DNA of 64,000 nucleotides from Amnibacterium sp. CER49 (GTDB lineage Bacteria > Actinomycetota > Actinomycetes > Actinomycetales > Microbacteriaceae): positions 1,860,001 through 1,924,000 of the forward strand of contig NZ_JARVWQ010000001.1 of the NCBI RefSeq assembly GCF_029846255.1. Reading direction: 5' to 3'. The notes beneath the pieces were generated by a model that had not been told where the DNA came from, made no database searches, and was given only the letters and a program-made list of their open reading frames with translations. Made by a program: the position numbers and the translations under genes. Shown here one piece after another: positions 5,339-12,838 of this stretch. Every line of letters begins with the position of its first letter. Within the stretch, counting starts at the first letter, position 1.

Positions 5339-6136
5339 TCAGAAGGTGGCGGTCATGCCGCCGTCGACGGCGAGCACCTGGCCCGTCACGTAGGTGTTCG
5401 CGGGGGAGCACAGGAACAGTGCAGCCTCTGCGACCTCCTCCGGCTCTGCTGGGCGCCTCAGCGGGATACGAGCGTTCTCGACGTAGATCGTGCGGAACCA
5501 GTCGGTCTCGTACTCGGTCGTGCCGTCGGCGTAGCGGGCCATCGGGGTGTTCACGAAGCCCGGGGCGAGCGCGTTCACGAGAACGCCGTCGTCGGCGAGA
5601 TCGCAGGCGAGGTCGCGGGTGAGGTTCACCAACGCCCCCTTCGACGCTCCGTACGCCAGCGAGTCACGGGCTCCCCGGAAGCCCTGGATGGAAGCCACAT
5701 TGAGCACGCGCCCCGACCCCGACGCTCGCAGCTGCGGCAGCAGCGCCAGGGTGACGGCCACCGCTCCTTCCAGGTTGACCCGGAGGACCGCTCGGACATC
5801 CGCCATGGTCAGGCCGGATGTCGGCACCTCACCGCCGACGCCGGCGTTGTTCACGAGCACGTCGATGGCACCGAGGCCGGCGACGACCTTCTCGGGAAGC
5901 GTCGCCACCGCGGAATCGTCGGCGATGTCGAGCGGCAACGAGGCGGCACTCCCGCCGGCCGCCCTGATCCGTGCCGCTGTCGCGTCGGCCCCCGCCTCGT
6001 TCCGGTCCGTGCAGACCACTGCGCACCCCGACCGGGCCAGCGCCTCCGCGATCGCGGCTCCGATGCCGCTTCCCGCTCCCGTCACCAAGGCGTTCCGTTG
6101 CTCGCTGCGGGAACCGGCACTCGCACTCGCGTACAT
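5339..6136 (-). CDS. SDR family NAD(P)-dependent dehydrogenase (candidate sugar dehydrogenase)
   Basis: Classical short-chain dehydrogenase of 265 residues. The cofactor motif TGAGSGIG is at residues 19-26, NNAG follows near residue 96, and the catalytic Ser149, Tyr162 and Lys166 are all present. It is transcribed away from the lactonase gene that starts 31 bases away, so both probably share one control region. Beside a lactonase, a mutarotase-like protein and an enolase-superfamily enzyme, the likely job is oxidation of an aldose (galactose, or possibly fucose) to its lactone. The substrate is inference; SDR sequence alone does not fix it. Confidence 0.85.
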   Translation of the reverse strand: MYASASAGSRSEQRNALVTGAGSGIGAAIAEALARSGCAVVCTDRNEAGADATAARIRAAGGSAASLPLDIADDSAVATLPEKVVAGLGAIDVLVNNAGVGGEVPTSGLTMADVRAVLRVNLEGAVAVTLALLPQLRASGSGRVLNVASIQGFRGARDSLAYGASKGALVNLTRDLACDLADDGVLVNALAPGFVNTPMARYADGTTEYETDWFRTIYVENARIPLRRPAEPEEVAEAALFLCSPANTYVTGQVLAVDGGMTATF

Positions 6137-6167
6137 TCGTCATATTTTACGGGAGGAAGGGGTCGAG
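6137..6167. promoter_or_regulatory. Divergent control region, SDR and lactonase genes
   Basis: The 31 bases between the divergent starts hold an AT-rich patch (CATATTTTAC, 6141-6150), unusual in this GC-rich cluster, followed by the strong Shine-Dalgarno GGGAGGAAGG of the lactonase at 6151-6160. Promoters for both directions must overlap the gene starts. It is a plausible target of the GntR-type regulator at 9339, but no clear palindrome was found. Confidence 0.4.
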
Positions 6168-7043
6168 GTGAGGGCGAACGAAGTCGTGGGGTGCCAGAAC
6201 GTGCTGGGGGAGTCCGTGCTGTGGCATGCGCCGAGTCGTCGTCTCTACTGGCTCGATCTCGCGGACCCCGCTCTGTTCTCCCTGGATCCGGGCTCAGGAG
6301 CCGTGGAGCGTCGGAGGCTCGCGGGGGCGGTACCGCTCGGCGCTCTCGCCTGCGCCGCCTCCCCGCATGAGCTGGTCCTGGTGAAGCGCGAGGGGGTGCA
6401 TCTGCTCGATCTCCGCGACGGGCGAGAGCGTCTGGTGGCGCATCCCCTGCACGGACGGACCGATCTCGCCTACAACGACGCCGGCGTCGACGCAGCGGGG
6501 CGGCTCTGGGTCGGCACCGTGGAGGAGTCGGAGACGCGGCCGTCTGCAGAGCTGTTCGTCGTCGAGACGGACGGCACGTGGCGGCCTGCGGTCCAGGGAC
6601 TCGTCATCTGCAACGGCCCGGTCTTCAGCCCGGACGGGGCCCTGGTGTACGTGAGCGACACGGCTGCGGGCCTGGTGCGCGTCTTCGACGTGGTCGACAC
6701 CTTCGGTGTAGCGAACGGACGGGTCTTCGCGCGCTTCGCCGCCGGCGACGGGCTGCCGGACGGGCTGGCCGTCGACTCGGAGGGTGCGCTCTGGGTGGCG
6801 CATTGGGCAGGGGGACGGGTCTCCAGATGGGATCCCTCCGGCACGCGGATGAGCGAGATCGAGGTCCCGACGCCGAATGTCACGAGCGTCGCCTTCGGGA
6901 ACGAGGACCTGTCGTCGCTCTACATCACGACCGCTCGCGACCCGTATGAAGGCGGGGAACGGCGGCTGCCGTCGGGATCACTGTTCGTCGCCGAGGTCGG
7001 AGTGCGGGGACGGCTCCCGCAGGCGTGCCGGATCGCGGCATGA
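6168..7043 (+). CDS. SMP-30/gluconolactonase family lactonase
   Basis: Six-bladed propeller sugar lactonase of 291 residues. It carries the family metal-site segments: GESVLWH near the start, YNDAGVDAAGRLWVGT in the middle and DGLAVDSEGALWVAHW in the second half. It would open an aldonolactone to the free aldonate. The GTG at 6168 was chosen because GGGAGGAAGG lies 7 nt upstream and the first residues match the family start. It overlaps the next gene as ATGA. Paired with the divergent SDR it fits a non-phosphorylating sugar oxidation route. Confidence 0.88.
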   Translation: MRANEVVGCQNVLGESVLWHAPSRRLYWLDLADPALFSLDPGSGAVERRRLAGAVPLGALACAASPHELVLVKREGVHLLDLRDGRERLVAHPLHGRTDLAYNDAGVDAAGRLWVGTVEESETRPSAELFVVETDGTWRPAVQGLVICNGPVFSPDGALVYVSDTAAGLVRVFDVVDTFGVANGRVFARFAAGDGLPDGLAVDSEGALWVAHWAGGRVSRWDPSGTRMSEIEVPTPNVTSVAFGNEDLSSLYITTARDPYEGGERRLPSGSLFVAEVGVRGRLPQACRIAA

Positions 7044-8050
7044 CGGAGGTCCGGTTCTCCTGGTCTCACGGCACCGCCGTCGTCTCGACCACCGCCGCGA
7101 TGCTGACCGAATGCATCTTTCAGGTCGACGGCCGACCATTCGCACCGTTCGCCACGCCCTGGTGGGGCCCCGACGACTTCGCGCGCCTTCCGGGTCACCT
7201 TCGTGTGCTCGGCGCGGAGTTCGTCTGCGTCCCGTTCGGTGAGGGGGGCCCGCTCGAAGGTGCGGTGGCCGAGTGGGAACCCCTGCTCGACCGGCCGGCG
7301 AACTCGCCCGGGCACGGGATCCCGGCCGACGCGGAGTGGGATGTGGCTGAAGGCCGCCCCGACGGACTCACGCTGAGGCTCCAGCTCCCCGAGGACCACC
7401 CGATCGATGCCATCGAACGTCGTATCGATGGCGTCCCGGGCGAGCCCACGCTCCGCCTTCAGCTGGTCATCTGGGCACGTCGCCGCAGCCGCACCTCGCT
7501 CGGCCTGCATCCCATCGTGCGGCTCCCGGATGCGCCTCGGAGCCTCGCTGTGGAAGCCGAGTTCGACGTCGGCTTCACCTACCCGGCCCCGACACCGACC
7601 GACTCCCCTGGCGAGCCGACGGCTCCTCGGATCCGGTGCGGGCAGCGGTTCAGCGCGCTCGAGGCGGTGCCGTCGACATCGGGCACGGAGGATCTGTCGC
7701 GTCTGCCCCTCGAGCGGGCGAGTGAGGAGATCGTGCAGCTCGCGGGAGTACGCCGTCCCGTCGTCCTGCGTTTCGCGGACGAGGGCGCCTCGCTCGAGAT
7801 CGACTGGGATCGGTCCAAGCTGCCCTCCGTTCAGCTCTGGCTGTCCGATCGCATGCTGCAGGGGGATCCCTGGCGCGGCCGCTACCGAGCGCTCGGTGTG
7901 GAACCCATCGCCTCTGCCTTCGACCTCGCTGCAGAGGTGTCCACCAGCCCGAACCCGATCTCCCGCGCCGGCTTCCCGACGTCGGTGGCGCTGGAACCGG
8001 GGCGCCCCTTCCTCGTCGACTACCGCCTTCGGGCTTCTGCTGAAAAGTAA
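7040..8050 (+). CDS. Galactose mutarotase-like (aldose 1-epimerase-like) protein
   Basis: Protein of 336 residues, recognised weakly. The pattern HGIPADAEWDV near residue 95, the central beta-rich region and the C-terminal segment GVEPIASAFDLA ending in a basic LEPGRPFLVDYRLR strand fit the mutarotase-like sugar-binding fold. It may interconvert sugar anomers for the dehydrogenase, or may only bind sugar. The start ATG 7040 overlaps the lactonase stop by four bases, so the two are co-translated. The usual catalytic His/Glu pair was not assigned with confidence. Confidence 0.6.
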   Translation: MTEVRFSWSHGTAVVSTTAAMLTECIFQVDGRPFAPFATPWWGPDDFARLPGHLRVLGAEFVCVPFGEGGPLEGAVAEWEPLLDRPANSPGHGIPADAEWDVAEGRPDGLTLRLQLPEDHPIDAIERRIDGVPGEPTLRLQLVIWARRRSRTSLGLHPIVRLPDAPRSLAVEAEFDVGFTYPAPTPTDSPGEPTAPRIRCGQRFSALEAVPSTSGTEDLSRLPLERASEEIVQLAGVRRPVVLRFADEGASLEIDWDRSKLPSVQLWLSDRMLQGDPWRGRYRALGVEPIASAFDLAAEVSTSPNPISRAGFPTSVALEPGRPFLVDYRLRASAEK

Positions 8051-8117
8051 TATCTTTGCTGTAGAGTTCTTCTGCTCCTGCGGGGCTCTCGCGCGCCCGC
8101 CATGACGATTGGTTCCC

Positions 8118-9305
8118 ATGCGCATCGATGCCGTCGACTTCTTCTACCTCTCGATGCCCGAGGTCACGCTCGAAGCGGACGGGAGCCAGGACGCGCTCCT
8201 CGTCCGCGTGGCAGGCGACAACGGGGTGGTGGGATGGGGCGAGTGCGAGGCGTCGCCCCTGACCTCGATCGCTGCTTTCGTGACCCCCCGATCCCATGGC
8301 GTCTGCCGGCCGGTCGCGGACTCCGTACTGGGCGAGACCATCGATGGCCCGGAGGACATCACCCGCATCACAGCGCAGGTGCAGCGCAACAGCATGGATC
8401 TGCTGCAGGCCGCGCACACCTTCTCGGGGGTGGAGATGGCGCTCTGGGACCTGCTCGGCAGGACGAGGGAGCAGCCGGCCTGGTCGCTGCTCGGCTACGC
8501 GTCGAGTCACGGCAAGCAGCCCTACGCGTCGATGCTCTTCGGTGAGACCCCCGAGGAGACCAGGGTGAACGTGCTGAGCGCGGTCGAGCGCGGCTTCAGG
8601 GCGGTCAAGGTCGGCTGGGAGGGCTTCGGCGCCGGCCACGCCGCGAGCGACGCGGACCATCTCGCGGCCGCTCGTGAGGGCCTCGGTGACGACGGCGTCC
8701 TGCTCGTCGACGCGGGCCAGATCTGGATCGAGGACGTCGCTGCCGCCTCCGAACGGATCGAGTCGCTCGAGCAGAACCACGTGACGTGGCTCGAGGAGCC
8801 CTTCCTCGCCGACTCCTACAAGGCATATGCCCAGCTGGCCGCGCGCGGGCGCACGCTGCGACTGGCCGGTGGGGAGGGTGCCCACAACGCGCGCATGGCA
8901 CTCAATCTGATCGACTACGGCAGGATCGGCTACGTGCAGATCGACTGCGGCAGGATCGGCGGCCTCGGGCCTGCGAAGCAGGTCGCCGACTACGCGGTCG
9001 GGGCCGGCGTCGTCTACGTGAACCACACATTCACGTCCCATCTCGCGCTCTCGGCCTCGTTGCAGCCCTTCGCCGGCCTCGAGAACCACCGCATCTGCGA
9101 GTACCCGGCCGAGCCGAAGCAGCTGGCGATCGACATGACCGTCAATGCCCTGCGTCCCGATCAGAACGGCCTCGTGTTCGCGCCCGATGCGCCGGGGCTC
9201 GGCATCGAAGTGAGCACGGCCGCAATCGCCACCTACGGTGTGCCGGTGCGGATCGAAGTCGGTGGCGCGGAGGTGTTCTCGAGTGGACCGAGCGTGTTTG
9301 CCTGA
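8118..9305 (+). CDS. Enolase superfamily (mandelate racemase/muconate lactonizing) enzyme, candidate aldonate dehydratase
   Basis: Enzyme of 395 residues with N-terminal capping and C-terminal barrel domains. The three metal-binding acids are visible: Asp198 (LLVDAG), Glu227 (WLEEPF) and Glu253 (GGEGAHN). His303 (NHTF) sits at the end of a later strand. The second-strand motif reads K164-V-G, not K-x-K, which points away from simple cycloisomerases and towards acid-sugar dehydratases. In context it is a good candidate for dehydrating galactonate (or a related aldonate). The start ATG 8118 has only a weak ribosome site; TTG 8109 is an alternative. Confidence 0.8.
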   Translation: MRIDAVDFFYLSMPEVTLEADGSQDALLVRVAGDNGVVGWGECEASPLTSIAAFVTPRSHGVCRPVADSVLGETIDGPEDITRITAQVQRNSMDLLQAAHTFSGVEMALWDLLGRTREQPAWSLLGYASSHGKQPYASMLFGETPEETRVNVLSAVERGFRAVKVGWEGFGAGHAASDADHLAAAREGLGDDGVLLVDAGQIWIEDVAAASERIESLEQNHVTWLEEPFLADSYKAYAQLAARGRTLRLAGGEGAHNARMALNLIDYGRIGYVQIDCGRIGGLGPAKQVADYAVGAGVVYVNHTFTSHLALSASLQPFAGLENHRICEYPAEPKQLAIDMTVNALRPDQNGLVFAPDAPGLGIEVSTAAIATYGVPVRIEVGGAEVFSSGPSVFA

Positions 9306-9338
9306 GTCCGGCTTCCCCGACCGGCGGCCGGGGCTGAT

Positions 9339-10076
9339 GTGAACCTCGGTTCGGGATACGTCCTCCGGGGTGTCCAGGGGCGTGTCATCGACAGCATCGG
9401 ACGGGCCATCGTCGGTGGTCGCTACGTCCCGGGGGCCTCTCTGCCGCGTGAAGCGGAGCTCATGGAGGAGTACGGCGTCAGCCGGACCTCGCTGCGCGAG
9501 GCGATGAAGGTGCTGGCCGCGAAGGGGCTCATCGAGATCCGGCAGAAATCCGGAACGCGAGTGCGGCCGCGATCCAGCTGGAACGTCTTCGACAGCGACC
9601 TCTTCGCGTGGTCGATGGAACACGGCGGGAGCGAGGCGGCGATCAGTGACCTCATCGAGCTCCGGCTGCTGCTGGAGCCATCGGCCGCTCGGCTCGCGGC
9701 CAGCCGAGCCACCATGGCGGACGCGACCCGGATCGACGCCGCCCTGACGGCGATGACCGCGGCCACCGCCGACCGGGAGGCCTACGCGGAGCACGACGTC
9801 GCCTTCCACCTGGCCGTCTTCGCCGCGTCGCACAACGTCTTCCTCGAGCGGTTCGGCAGCCTCGTCGCGGACTTCCTCCGGCTGACGTTCGACATGCAGC
9901 AGAAGGTCCTGCTGGAACGCACGAACGAGGTGGACTTCACCGAGGACGCCGCCCGGCACCGCGTGGTCTATGACGGCATCACCCGCGGTGCGCCCGACGC
10001 CGCGGCCGACGCCATGACCGAGGTGGTCCTCGACGGTAAGCGGAACCTCATCGCCGCCGTCGAGGCGATCGACTAG
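9339..10076 (+). CDS. FadR/GntR-family transcriptional regulator
   Basis: Regulator of 245 residues. Residues 8-75 form a winged helix (GGRYVPGASLPREAELMEEY, then SRTSLREAMKVL), followed by an all-helical FCD ligand domain with the typical ELRLLLEP start and later His residues likely to bind a metal or acid ligand. FCD regulators usually sense sugar acids or other carboxylates, so it probably reads the aldonate or keto-deoxy acid made by this cluster and represses it. GTG 9339 is preceded by GGGGCTGAT. Confidence 0.88.
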   Translation: MNLGSGYVLRGVQGRVIDSIGRAIVGGRYVPGASLPREAELMEEYGVSRTSLREAMKVLAAKGLIEIRQKSGTRVRPRSSWNVFDSDLFAWSMEHGGSEAAISDLIELRLLLEPSAARLAASRATMADATRIDAALTAMTAATADREAYAEHDVAFHLAVFAASHNVFLERFGSLVADFLRLTFDMQQKVLLERTNEVDFTEDAARHRVVYDGITRGAPDAAADAMTEVVLDGKRNLIAAVEAID

Positions 10077-10433
10077 TACGTCTCCCACTCGGGCGCTGCT
10101 CGTCGGGTTCGCCCGGTGCTCTCCCTGGCGGACGTCTTCCGCCGACAGCGTGCTGCGTGACGCGTCGGTCCTCGTCGCCGGTGGAAGTCACGAGGAGCTG
10201 GCCGAGACGCGACTTCGCGTCCCGCAACGGCCTGGCGGGCCGGACGTTCCTCGGGGGCGCCACTGTCGCCTTCGTGGCCACGGTCGTTCGGACGAAGGGC
10301 GAAGGTCTCTCGATCGAGGAGCACGGCAGGACCGGGACCTCGAGAGGGACCTCCGGGTCGCCGCGGGAGGCCGCCGCCCTGCTGCACGCCCGGATCGTGC
10401 ACCGGGTCCAGATCCGCGCAGACGCGCGGGGAC
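10077..10433. other. Gene-free stretch before the island
   Basis: No convincing gene is present on either strand of these 357 bases. Open frames here have no ribosome site or family resemblance, and the long minus-strand frame is partly a translation of the tRNA-Lys copy. It may hold the 3' end of the sugar-cluster transcript and old junction DNA from the insertion at 10434. Confidence 0.5.
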
Positions 10434-10478
10434 GTGGGCCCCGTGGGGCTCGAACCCACGACCCAGGGATTAAAAGTC
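10434..10478. repeat. att-like direct repeat, copy of tRNA-Lys 3' half
   Basis: These 45 bases are identical to 12765-12809, the part of tRNA-Lys that runs from the anticodon loop through the TPsiC arm to the discriminator base plus one base. Sequence diverges on both sides. This is the classical footprint of an integrase that recombines within a tRNA gene. It marks the left end of a 2.3-kb element. Confidence 0.92.
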
Positions 10479-10584
10479 TCAGGGGCCCTGGTTTTGCGCG
10501 TATTGACCGCGCTCGCAACCGGTACAGCTTCGCCGGTCAGGCGCGGATTTCGTCGTCGCACTCGGTCGTCAGCGTACTTGGGGG

Positions 10585-10653
10585 TGCTAGGAGCGTCGCC
10601 TAGCGGGCGCCTAGCAGTGCTCGCTGTCGTACCCGCGTCCTAGCGTCCCTTCT
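10585..10653 (+). promoter_or_regulatory. CTAG-rich array and promoter of the island cargo
   Basis: Four CTAG tetramers, normally rare in bacterial DNA, occur at 10587, 10600, 10611 and 10640. TGCTAGG (10585-10591) and CCTAGCA (10610-10616) form an inverted repeat with another CCTAGCG between them. The last unit forms TAGCGT (10641-10646), a good -10 hexamer 7 nt before the GTG at 10654, so the transcript is probably leaderless. The array lies over the -35 region and may be an operator. Confidence 0.5.
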
Positions 10654-11409
10654 GTGGTGTCAGTGGAATTCGAGGCGGCGTGGGTGCCGTACCGCGTCAT
10701 TGACTACGAGCTGGCTGTGCAGCCGGCTGTCGCCTTCGCTGCACGACCGACTGGCCGGGGCAAGGTCGTCGCCGTGCACGTCAAGCCGGACGTCGACTCC
10801 ACGCCGGCTCTTCGTCGGTTCGCACAGCGAGCGACTGTGATCACGAACCGCACGAGCGCCGGCGCGCTGCAGGGCAGCGACGTGCTCGCCTTCGTGCCCG
10901 ATTGGAAGCTGCTCGAGCTCGCCGTCCGCAGCGCTCGTAGTGGCTCGCTCGTGGCCGTTGAGGACCCGGGATCGGTGCTGCGTGGTTGGGCGCAGGCGGT
11001 TGGGGCGGTGAATCTCGGCACGGGTGGGCCGACTCCGGATCCGGCCACCGACCAGGTGCGTGAGGCGATCGAGCATATTGCCTTCGCCGGGAACAACGGC
11101 TGGGGTCGGAAGGCGTTCGGCCGTACGTCGACGCAGCACGTCCTGCGACAGCTCGCCGAAGCGGGGTGGACGGACGGGGCGAGGATCGTCGGCGGTGTCT
11201 TCGCGCTGGGCAAGTCCGCCAGCTCCCTCGGCGACCTCGAGGAGCTCGTGGCCGCGGCGTTCGGGTCCGCTCAAGCAAGGGAGTTCAGCTTCCACCAGTG
11301 GACCCGGGCGGACGAGGCGAAGCAGTGCCCGGTCGATAGCTACCCGATGGTTGACGCCGCCGCGCACGAGTGGGTGTGTCGGTCCTGCGGCCATCAGGAG
11401 CGGAAGTAG
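10654..11409 (+). CDS. Island cargo protein 1, unknown, C-terminal zinc-ribbon-like motif
   Basis: Protein of 251 residues, family not recognised. The N-terminal half alternates beta and alpha segments (VVAVHVKPDVD, TVITNRTSAGALQGSDVLAFVPDW, GSLVAVEDPGSVLRGW) as in a small Rossmann-like fold. The C-terminal tail has a Cys at about 227 and a final CRSCGH motif, possibly a zinc knuckle. No signal or membrane segment is present. It starts at GTG 10654 (or 10657) under a CTAG-rich promoter and leads a three-gene run. A regulatory or defence role is inference from its place in an island. Confidence 0.7.
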   Translation: MVSVEFEAAWVPYRVIDYELAVQPAVAFAARPTGRGKVVAVHVKPDVDSTPALRRFAQRATVITNRTSAGALQGSDVLAFVPDWKLLELAVRSARSGSLVAVEDPGSVLRGWAQAVGAVNLGTGGPTPDPATDQVREAIEHIAFAGNNGWGRKAFGRTSTQHVLRQLAEAGWTDGARIVGGVFALGKSASSLGDLEELVAAAFGSAQAREFSFHQWTRADEAKQCPVDSYPMVDAAAHEWVCRSCGHQERK

Positions 11410-11413
11410 CGGC

Positions 11414-11683
11414 GTGGTGCTGTGCTGGGCCCTCGGCCTTGTGTTGCTGGTAGCCGGCGCTGTCGTGTCGGTTGTCGGGATCGGCTGGAGCGTGCGCCTG
11501 GGGCCCACCGTGCGTGAACCCGGCGACGGCACGATCGAGCTGAACCTGCCGACGGAGGCGGAGGCGCGCGTCGAGCAGCGTGCGCAGCGGCGCCGTCTGC
11601 TCGCGGCTCAAGTCGGCGTGCTGCTGGCAACCGTCGGCGGCGTCCTCTCGGCCTTCGGTCAGCAGCCCTGGTCGCACGGATGA
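11414..11683 (+). CDS. Island cargo protein 2, small two-helix membrane protein
   Basis: Protein of 89 residues with one hydrophobic helix near residues 4-26, a charged loop of about 35 residues rich in Glu and Arg, and a second hydrophobic helix near residues 65-82. It lies 4 bases after cargo gene 1 and overlaps cargo gene 3 as ATGA, so it belongs to the same transcript. Family not recognised. Start is GTG 11414 or 11417. Confidence 0.65.
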   Translation: MVLCWALGLVLLVAGAVVSVVGIGWSVRLGPTVREPGDGTIELNLPTEAEARVEQRAQRRRLLAAQVGVLLATVGGVLSAFGQQPWSHG

Positions 11684-12222
11684 GCGACGCGGTCGGCTCC
11701 GCCGCGCTCTCGCTGCTCGTGAGCGTCTTCGGCACGCTGCTCACGCTGCTCACGGTGGGCCGGCTCACCGTGAGCAGGATGAAAGCGGAGGAGCAGGTGG
11801 CGGCGCGTCGGGCCGTGCGCGCGGCCGTGATGCCCATTGTGCGCGACATCGAGCGGTACCGCCGCGGACAGCTAAACGGCTTCCACCGAGCGGAGGATGC
11901 CGCACATGCGGAGGACGGCGTTCGCGCCGCGCAAGTGCACGCGGCGGCCGAGAACCTGGTCTGGTGGCGTGCGGTACTCGTCCGGCGCCGCTGCCGGCGC
12001 GTGTTCGGCAAGCGCATGAGCGACCTCGGCCGCGACTTCGCCGACCAGCCGACTCAGGTCGGCGCCACTCGTATCACCGCCGACCTCCTCCTCAATCCGC
12101 GTGGCCGGCCGTCCGAGGAGTTGCGAGCCGGCCTCCTGCATCAGGGACTGCGGGCGGACCGGCGGTCCGCCGTGACGCGGAAGCTGGTTCGAGAGCTGCG
12201 CAAGCTCGCGAGCTCGCGCTAG
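11680..12222 (+). CDS. Island cargo protein 3, N-terminally anchored basic protein
   Basis: Protein of 180 residues. One hydrophobic segment spans about residues 7-29, followed by a strongly basic and helical cytoplasmic part with many Arg residues and RRCRRVFGKR near the middle. It begins inside the stop of cargo gene 2, so the two membrane proteins are probably made in a fixed ratio. Family not recognised. Its stop overlaps the stop of the convergent gene 12219-12470. Confidence 0.65.
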   Translation: MSDAVGSAALSLLVSVFGTLLTLLTVGRLTVSRMKAEEQVAARRAVRAAVMPIVRDIERYRRGQLNGFHRAEDAAHAEDGVRAAQVHAAAENLVWWRAVLVRRRCRRVFGKRMSDLGRDFADQPTQVGATRITADLLLNPRGRPSEELRAGLLHQGLRADRRSAVTRKLVRELRKLASSR

Positions 12223-12470
12223 TCGCGCGCGGCGGGTCCTGCCCTAGGGGCGCGGCACGCGGCCTTGGCCTCGAGGTCGAGCAGCTCGAGCTGCTGCTCG
12301 CGCAGGTCGTAGCTGATGAGCTCCGCTGCCTCGAGCTGCTCCTGCTGGAAGGCGTCGCGCTCGAGGCGCTCGTGCTCGTCACGCTCAGCAGCGGAAGGGA
12401 AGCGCTGCCCACAGAGGAAGCACATGGGCTGACCGAGCGGGGACAGCCGGGCCGTGCGCGGTGCGGTCAT
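12219..12470 (-). CDS. Small protein with CxxC...H motif, island edge
   Basis: Protein of 83 residues on the opposite strand. Cys17-x2-Cys20 is followed by His33 in an MCFLCGQRF...DEHE context that resembles half of a zinc finger, then a helical, Glu- and Leu-rich stretch likely to be a coiled coil (EQLEAAELISYDLREQQLEL). GGGGAC lies 7 nt before the ATG. It could be a small DNA- or protein-binding regulator of the island. Function unknown. Confidence 0.55.
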   Translation of the reverse strand: MTAPRTARLSPLGQPMCFLCGQRFPSAAERDEHERLERDAFQQEQLEAAELISYDLREQQLELLDLEAKAACRAPRAGPAARD

Positions 12471-12570
12471 CGTCGTCCCCGTTTCGGAGTGCTGCTCGGA
12501 ATGGTCTGCGGTGGGTGCGACTGCGAGGCCGGCGCCTTGTTTCCGTCACTCACCCCCTACCCTCGGCTTT

Positions 12571-12720
12571 CCGTCGATCACGGCGAACGTCTACAGCCAC
12601 GCGCTCGGCGACGCCGGAGCGCGGGCGGCGCAGGCCCTTTCGGCGGCGATTCCGGTGCAGTTGCCGGGCGCCGCCTCGCATCCGCCTAGCGCGACACCTC
12701 TGCCGGCCGTGCCGGACTAG
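12571..12720 (+). pseudogene. Tyrosine integrase remnant, C-terminal end only
   Basis: The frame reading ITANVYSHALGDAGARAAQAL matches the end of tyrosine recombinases, including the catalytic Tyr in the VYSHAL motif, and closes with a Pro-rich tail and a stop at 12718-12720. The rest of the roughly 400-residue enzyme is absent and no start is present. The fragment lies 45 bases from the att copy in tRNA-Lys, where an integrase gene is expected. It identifies the enzyme type that built the island and shows that the island has lost autonomous mobility. Confidence 0.8.
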
Positions 12721-12764
12721 CGATGAGCGCCAACAAAAGGGCGGTCCACCAGGCGTTTCCCTCT

Positions 12765-12809
12765 GTGGGCCCCGTGGGGCTCGAACCCACGACCCAGGGA
12801 TTAAAAGTC
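12765..12809. repeat. att-like direct repeat inside tRNA-Lys
   Basis: Right copy of the 45-bp repeat matching 10434-10478 exactly. It overlaps the 3' half of the intact tRNA-Lys gene, which keeps a full cloverleaf, so the tRNA is still functional after insertion. Confidence 0.92.
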
Positions 12810-12838
12810 CCTTGCTCTACCGACTGAGCTAGAGGCCC
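12766..12838 (-). tRNA. tRNA-Lys (anticodon TTT)
   Basis: A 73-nt cloverleaf reads on the minus strand. The acceptor stem pairs GGGCCTC with GGGGCCC, the D-arm has AGCTCAGTCGGTAGAGC, and the anticodon loop CTTTTAA gives anticodon UUU. The TPsiC arm carries GGTTCGAGCCC. The CCA end is not encoded. Its 3' half was used as the integration site of the adjacent island. Confidence 0.95.

Follow-up and report, generated by a model that had tools for sequence, protein, structure and literature searches.

Within the 64,000-nt stretch of Amnibacterium sp. CER49 DNA that was analysed (the window), a tRNA-Lys(TTT) gene was located at 12765–12838 on the minus strand by ARAGORN (Rfam tRNA, 71 bits) and was taken as an integration target. 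Repeat comparison gave an exact 45-nt direct repeat at 10434–10478 and 12765–12809, which encloses 2.29 kb. The right copy lies within the tRNA gene and was assigned as the proximal att site, and the left copy as the distal one. The repeat spans from the anticodon arm to the 3′ end of the tRNA, which is the usual shape of the att site of a tyrosine recombinase. When its 29-nt core was searched allowing up to 3 mismatches, just these two sites were found, against a chance expectation of 0.00. This confirms the first-pass annotation, in which exact 45-bp repeats of tRNA-Lys had been described as bounding about 2.3 kb. The open reading frames between the repeats were also laid out as described there. 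P1 (251 aa; 10654–11409, plus strand) consists of an α/β domain, a helical domain, and a degenerate Cys-rich tail, as judged from its homologues, their alignments A1–A3, and a structure model. P2 (89 aa; 11414–11683, plus strand) contains two hydrophobic helices, and P3 (180 aa; 11680–12222, plus strand) an N-terminal membrane helix followed by a basic helical body, both based on hydropathy of the reading frame. P1, P2, and P3 are packed in one run: the start of P2 is located 4 nt past the P1 stop, and the ATG of P3 overlaps the P2 stop (ATGA, 4-nt overlap). P4 (83 aa; 12219–12470), a small CxxC..H protein, is placed on the minus strand. The GC3 values of P1–P3 were 0.83–0.87, which is lower than those of most neighbouring chromosomal genes. 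Among the island reading frames tested, there was no relevant Pfam match, no intact recombinase, and no conjugation or mobilisation module; short remnants only were detected. A CTAG-rich stretch was noticed upstream of P1, and three copies of CGCCTAGC lie in the island, close to its two ends (10597–10615 and 12683–12690). These resembled arm sites, but the idea was rejected: the count in the window (5 versus 2.2 expected) does not reach significance, and the motif is absent from the sister island described below.

The cargo had been regarded as unknown, which held in the profile searches. P1 exhibited no match in Pfam, NCBIfam, PHROG, PADLOC, or PDB sequences, and nothing above the cut-offs was obtained for P2–P4 in Pfam, NCBIfam, PHROGs, and PADLOC. 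P1 is a full-length, intact member of a family whose alignments contain invariant residues. Its model (pLDDT 81.2, pTM 0.77) is composed of an α/β half and a subsequent helical half, for which Foldseek detected no significant match against the PDB and viral models. The best hit, lobe 2 of an SF2 helicase (RecA-like), was discarded as not significant (E = 0.01, TM-score of 0.25 to the query). The C-terminus of P1 had been described as zinc-ribbon-like. It is indeed Cys-rich (CPVD...CRSC), while it holds three Cys residues rather than four, is modelled at low confidence (pLDDT of about 50), and is missing from the homologues in alignments A1–A3. For P3, no convincing relative was identified in 300 genomes of the family, 297 genomes of the class, plasmids, or phages. 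Weak class-level matches (best E = 9e-4, 30% identity over 112 aa) were judged as likely composition matches, and the single-sequence model of P3 was discarded for its pLDDT of 43.

Homologues of P1 were detected in 8 of 400 genomes of the family and, by profile, in 9 of 395 genomes of the class, the source genome being included in both counts; the family hence occurs in about 2% of the genomes sampled. Scans of the whole collection using P1 alone gave no relatives in viral or genome contigs, and with the P1 alignment as query, 18 loci emerged in genome contigs, while viral contigs again yielded nothing. Rather than being confined to fixed chromosomal places, many homologues are located on plasmids or beside mobile-element genes, and most of them have no tRNA gene close by. 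They sit on linear plasmids of Streptomyces, beside or after tap/tpg-like genes, and on plasmids of Rhodococcus. On mycobacterial plasmids, a serine-resolvase gene immediately precedes the P1 gene or overlaps it, as observed for three small-plasmid homologues (L105:8776–9366, L106:8554–9198, and L107:6187–6828) that include the one on pMAB23 of M. abscessus ATCC 19977. A MobF relaxase was found near the P1 homologues of L019 and L087. The neighbours vary between lineages: a TIR protein (PDC-S66 and ThsB profiles) lies beside the homologue in L012 with an Abi gene further on, an Stk2-like kinase in L069, an AlbA_2/Schlafen protein in L107, and a two-helix protein in L077. The protein encoded downstream of the Streptomyces homologue at L077:6741–7307 has 188 aa, two hydrophobic stretches, and a cluster of Cys residues at its C-terminus; it looks SLATT-like by eye, which Pfam does not confirm. 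P1 is probably a soluble protein with an α/β part and a helical bundle, and its unnamed actinobacterial family circulates on plasmids. The homologue on pMAB23 is MAB_RS00075. Transposon sequencing of this plasmid indicated that, of 22 annotated coding sequences, among which we assume MAB_RS00075 was counted, only repA is needed for growth (PMC8262987). For at least one plasmid, a member of the P1 family hence seems dispensable for growth, and the dispensability of the sequences other than repA argues against a role as antitoxin or in core replication.

The membrane partners are not shared in this way. A mechanical count of reading frames, which can miss genes, placed a gene for a two-helix membrane protein no more than 200 nt downstream of P1 in 3 of 31 loci, including the source locus, and found none in the other 28. 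P2 and P3 do not travel with P1, indicating that the three-gene system is not conserved. The proposal in the first-pass annotation that the three genes constitute one uncharacterised system is not supported, given the 28 loci and the lack of convincing relatives of P3.

The same annotation had stated that no transfer or replication gene is present. This is correct for intact genes, while remnants of integrases had been overlooked. A tblastn search identified a part of the catalytic domain of the tRNA-Lys-type tyrosine integrase of the genus at 10241–10393 (plus strand), outside the left repeat, which matched the intact integrases of L070 (E = 5.4e-7) and L142 (E = 4.8e-7) over 44–51 aa. The C-terminal end of the same integrase, RGPRGARTHDPGIKS, was found at 10424–10477 (plus strand; tblastn against L070, 78% over 18 aa), where it overlaps the left repeat; the stretch between the two pieces has been deleted. 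This remnant is part of an older neighbouring element. Its tail runs into the left repeat, and the latter also represents the tRNA-side end of that older decayed element. Further to the left, the interval 5500–10076 of the window holds a cluster of sugar-acid type with SMP30-like, epimerase-like, and enolase-superfamily genes (by eye) and a GntR/FCD regulator (Pfam); it could be cargo of the older element. On the other side of the island, FPSITANVYSHALGDAGARAAQALSAAIP at 12568–12672 (plus strand), which adjoins the tRNA gene, is a probable C-terminal remnant of a second type of tyrosine recombinase at the motif level. Its best matches in the family genomes gave E = 0.003–0.05, and several of them are the C-terminal ends of complete tyrosine recombinases that have the catalytic-tyrosine motif (L096, L098, and L099), e.g., LGHSTIAVTSDLYSHLLTDANRAAADAAESMLP. 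This short piece is probably the stump of the island's own recombinase, judging from the shared motif. Two relatives (G016 and G159) carry intact integrases of the tRNA-Lys family; these genes end in this same tRNA-Lys gene and have other cargo beside them. The other genomes of the genus examined (G097, G255, and G293) have one copy of the tRNA in the stretch read, with different, unrelated left flanks. The integrase remnant by the left repeat, together with the intact genes of G016 and G159, indicates that tRNA-Lys is an integration hot spot, at which the island is one unit of a decaying tandem.

A copy of P4 that is 84% identical was detected elsewhere in the same genome (G000:C1:72993–73196), and it belongs to a sister island of 2.7 kb at G000:C1:71522–74382 (L126:8523–11382) with no integrase inside. 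Its target is a tRNA-Met gene (G000:C1:74308–74381), and it is bordered by an exact 43-bp repeat of the 3′ part of that tRNA (L126 8523–8565 and 11308–11350). A piece that lies immediately outside its left repeat is similar to the SAM-like domain of an integrase (E = 0.01). Its cargo differs from that of the tRNA-Lys island and consists of the P4 copy together with a DUF5677 protein (E = 6e-8), a membrane protein with DUF2510, an HTH-like protein, and a 196-aa protein that has no family assignment. The 196-aa protein contains an RNSIIH motif that is HEPN-like by eye only, with no Pfam match. The DNA common to both islands extends over 12267–12575 of the window (84.7%, blastn E = 3.5e-95), which covers the body of P4 together with about 105 bp on its upstream side. 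The ATG is missing from the sister copy of P4, and the substitutions are distributed as 7/8/10 over the codon positions, which makes the coding status of P4 uncertain. Rather than a protein maintained in both islands, P4 could be a decayed or regulatory module. The tRNA-island reading of the locus was strengthened by this sister island and by the integrases found at the same tRNA in relatives.

Such arrangements were surveyed in the genome, which has 46 tRNA-like places (Rfam), by inspecting tRNA genes together with about 15 kb of their 3′ flank. Among those inspected, six have an exact 38–47-nt copy of their own 3′ part within 15 kb, and at least two of these islands contain an intact integrase. 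These copies lie 2.3 kb away for tRNA-Lys, 2.7 kb for the tRNA-Met of the sister island, 6.0 kb for tRNA-Arg with an intact tyrosine integrase, 7.4 kb for a second tRNA-Met with an integrase remnant (E = 3e-13), 9.3 kb for tRNA-Asn with an intact tyrosine integrase, and 112 bp for tRNA-Ala, which is a bare scar. The Arg, Met, Asn, and Ala cases lie in the G000 regions L142, L144, L156, and L140.

Taken together, the locus is probably a small, decayed, integrase-less integrative element of CIME-like type in the 3′ end of tRNA-Lys, which carries accessory cargo. It is flanked by two att-type direct repeats, and both an intact recombinase and a conjugation or mobilisation module are missing from it. 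Decayed, cis-mobilisable elements (CIMEs) are the closest known kind; a strict CIME would descend from an ICE or IME, and no remnant of a relaxase or of conjugation/transfer genes was seen in the island beside the probable recombinase tail. Streptococcal CIMEs and microCIMEs similarly are small islands that keep both att repeats, have lost their recombination and transfer genes, and sit in the 3′ end of a tRNA, with a further decayed element in tandem (PMC7563491). Those of S. agalactiae use a tRNA-Lys gene as well (PMC7563491). The present case differs in its actinobacterial host, and both its descent from an ICE or IME and its mobility are putative. The tRNA islands of the same genus that encode tyrosine integrases (L070, L072, and L142) share the type of target, and the integrase piece beyond the left repeat belongs to the family of their integrases, whereas they have an intact integrase and other cargo. 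For such a locus to arise, a tyrosine recombinase would have integrated a circular element into tRNA-Lys, at its anticodon-arm/3′ part, by which the tRNA would be rebuilt and its displaced 3′ part left as the distal repeat. This insertion would have occurred beside the older element, whose integrase remnant persists just outside the left repeat, and a deletion would then have taken nearly all of the island's own integrase. The leftovers would be the two intact att-type repeats, the P4 module, and one cargo operon, P1–P2–P3. Further movement of the island could then take place only in trans or through accretion with an incoming element. Its cargo would be accessory, with P2 and P3 as membrane partners gained locally. 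The most likely role of the operon, although at well below an even chance, would be a function at the membrane that benefits the element, e.g., the exclusion of other mobile DNA or defence against it, with P1 as its soluble component.

The role of P1–P3 was judged from their context. A real possibility, though it falls short of an even chance, is that the cargo is left over from the maintenance of a plasmid or ICE (resolvase, partition, or transfer accessory), in which P1 works with replication or resolution proteins outside defence. The position of P1 after or over serine resolvases in mycobacteria and after tap/tpg-like genes in Streptomyces is consistent with this, as is the nearby MobF in L019 and L087, while the dispensability for growth of all pMAB23 coding sequences except repA (PMC8262987) argues in the other direction. 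The window has no recombinase or relaxase partner, and the partners of P1 change with the lineage. We consider it unlikely, but not much so, that P1–P2–P3 is an undescribed anti-phage or abortive-infection operon, in which P1 would sense infection or a nucleotide signal and release or activate P2 and P3. Its compactness with the P2/P3 ATGA overlap, the TIR (with Abi further on), Stk2-like kinase, AlbA_2/Schlafen, and two-helix neighbours of some P1 relatives, and the DUF5677 protein of the sister island are in favour of such a system. It resembles membrane-effector defence operons, of which the TIR, SLATT, and kinase neighbours of P1 relatives are reminiscent, in that a soluble protein and small membrane proteins are combined in one operon. 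It differs from them in that no P protein has a profile match and the partner is not conserved. No profile of a known defence system in PADLOC matched P1–P4 or the P1 homologues; P1–P2–P3 is not a gene set conserved across genomes, and P2 and P3 look like orphans. Moreover, many P1 genes adjoin replication, telomere, or resolvase genes of plasmids. The defence reading put forward in the first-pass annotation found no positive result: PADLOC gave no match, and TIR, kinase, or AlbA genes accompany some P1 homologues but plasmid housekeeping genes others.

The island might also be junk, a dead relic whose reading frames are open by chance in GC-rich DNA. The two broken integrase traces, the lack of relatives of P3, and the GC3 of P1–P3 below most neighbouring chromosomal genes would agree with it. 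We regard it as unlikely, as P1 is intact and full-length in a family with invariant residues and the 4-nt spacing and 4-nt overlap of P1–P2–P3 are of the working-operon type. A bolder and improbable reading, which we offer as speculation, is that the P1 family is an undescribed soluble module of plasmids with interchangeable effectors (membrane, TIR, kinase, or AlbA) in conflicts between elements of Actinomycetota; P1–P2–P3 would then be one membrane-effector version of it, borne by a family of tRNA mini-islands that has two members and no integrase.

Decayed tRNA islands of the CIME kind are known. One actinobacterial genome gathers many small tRNA-borne islands, some with integrases and some composed of just cargo between att repeats. 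The P1 family is clean, confidently modelled, and nameless, and it is found on plasmids from Streptomyces to mycobacteria. As these include pMAB23 of Mycobacteroides abscessus ATCC 19977, its function is testable in laboratory actinobacteria.
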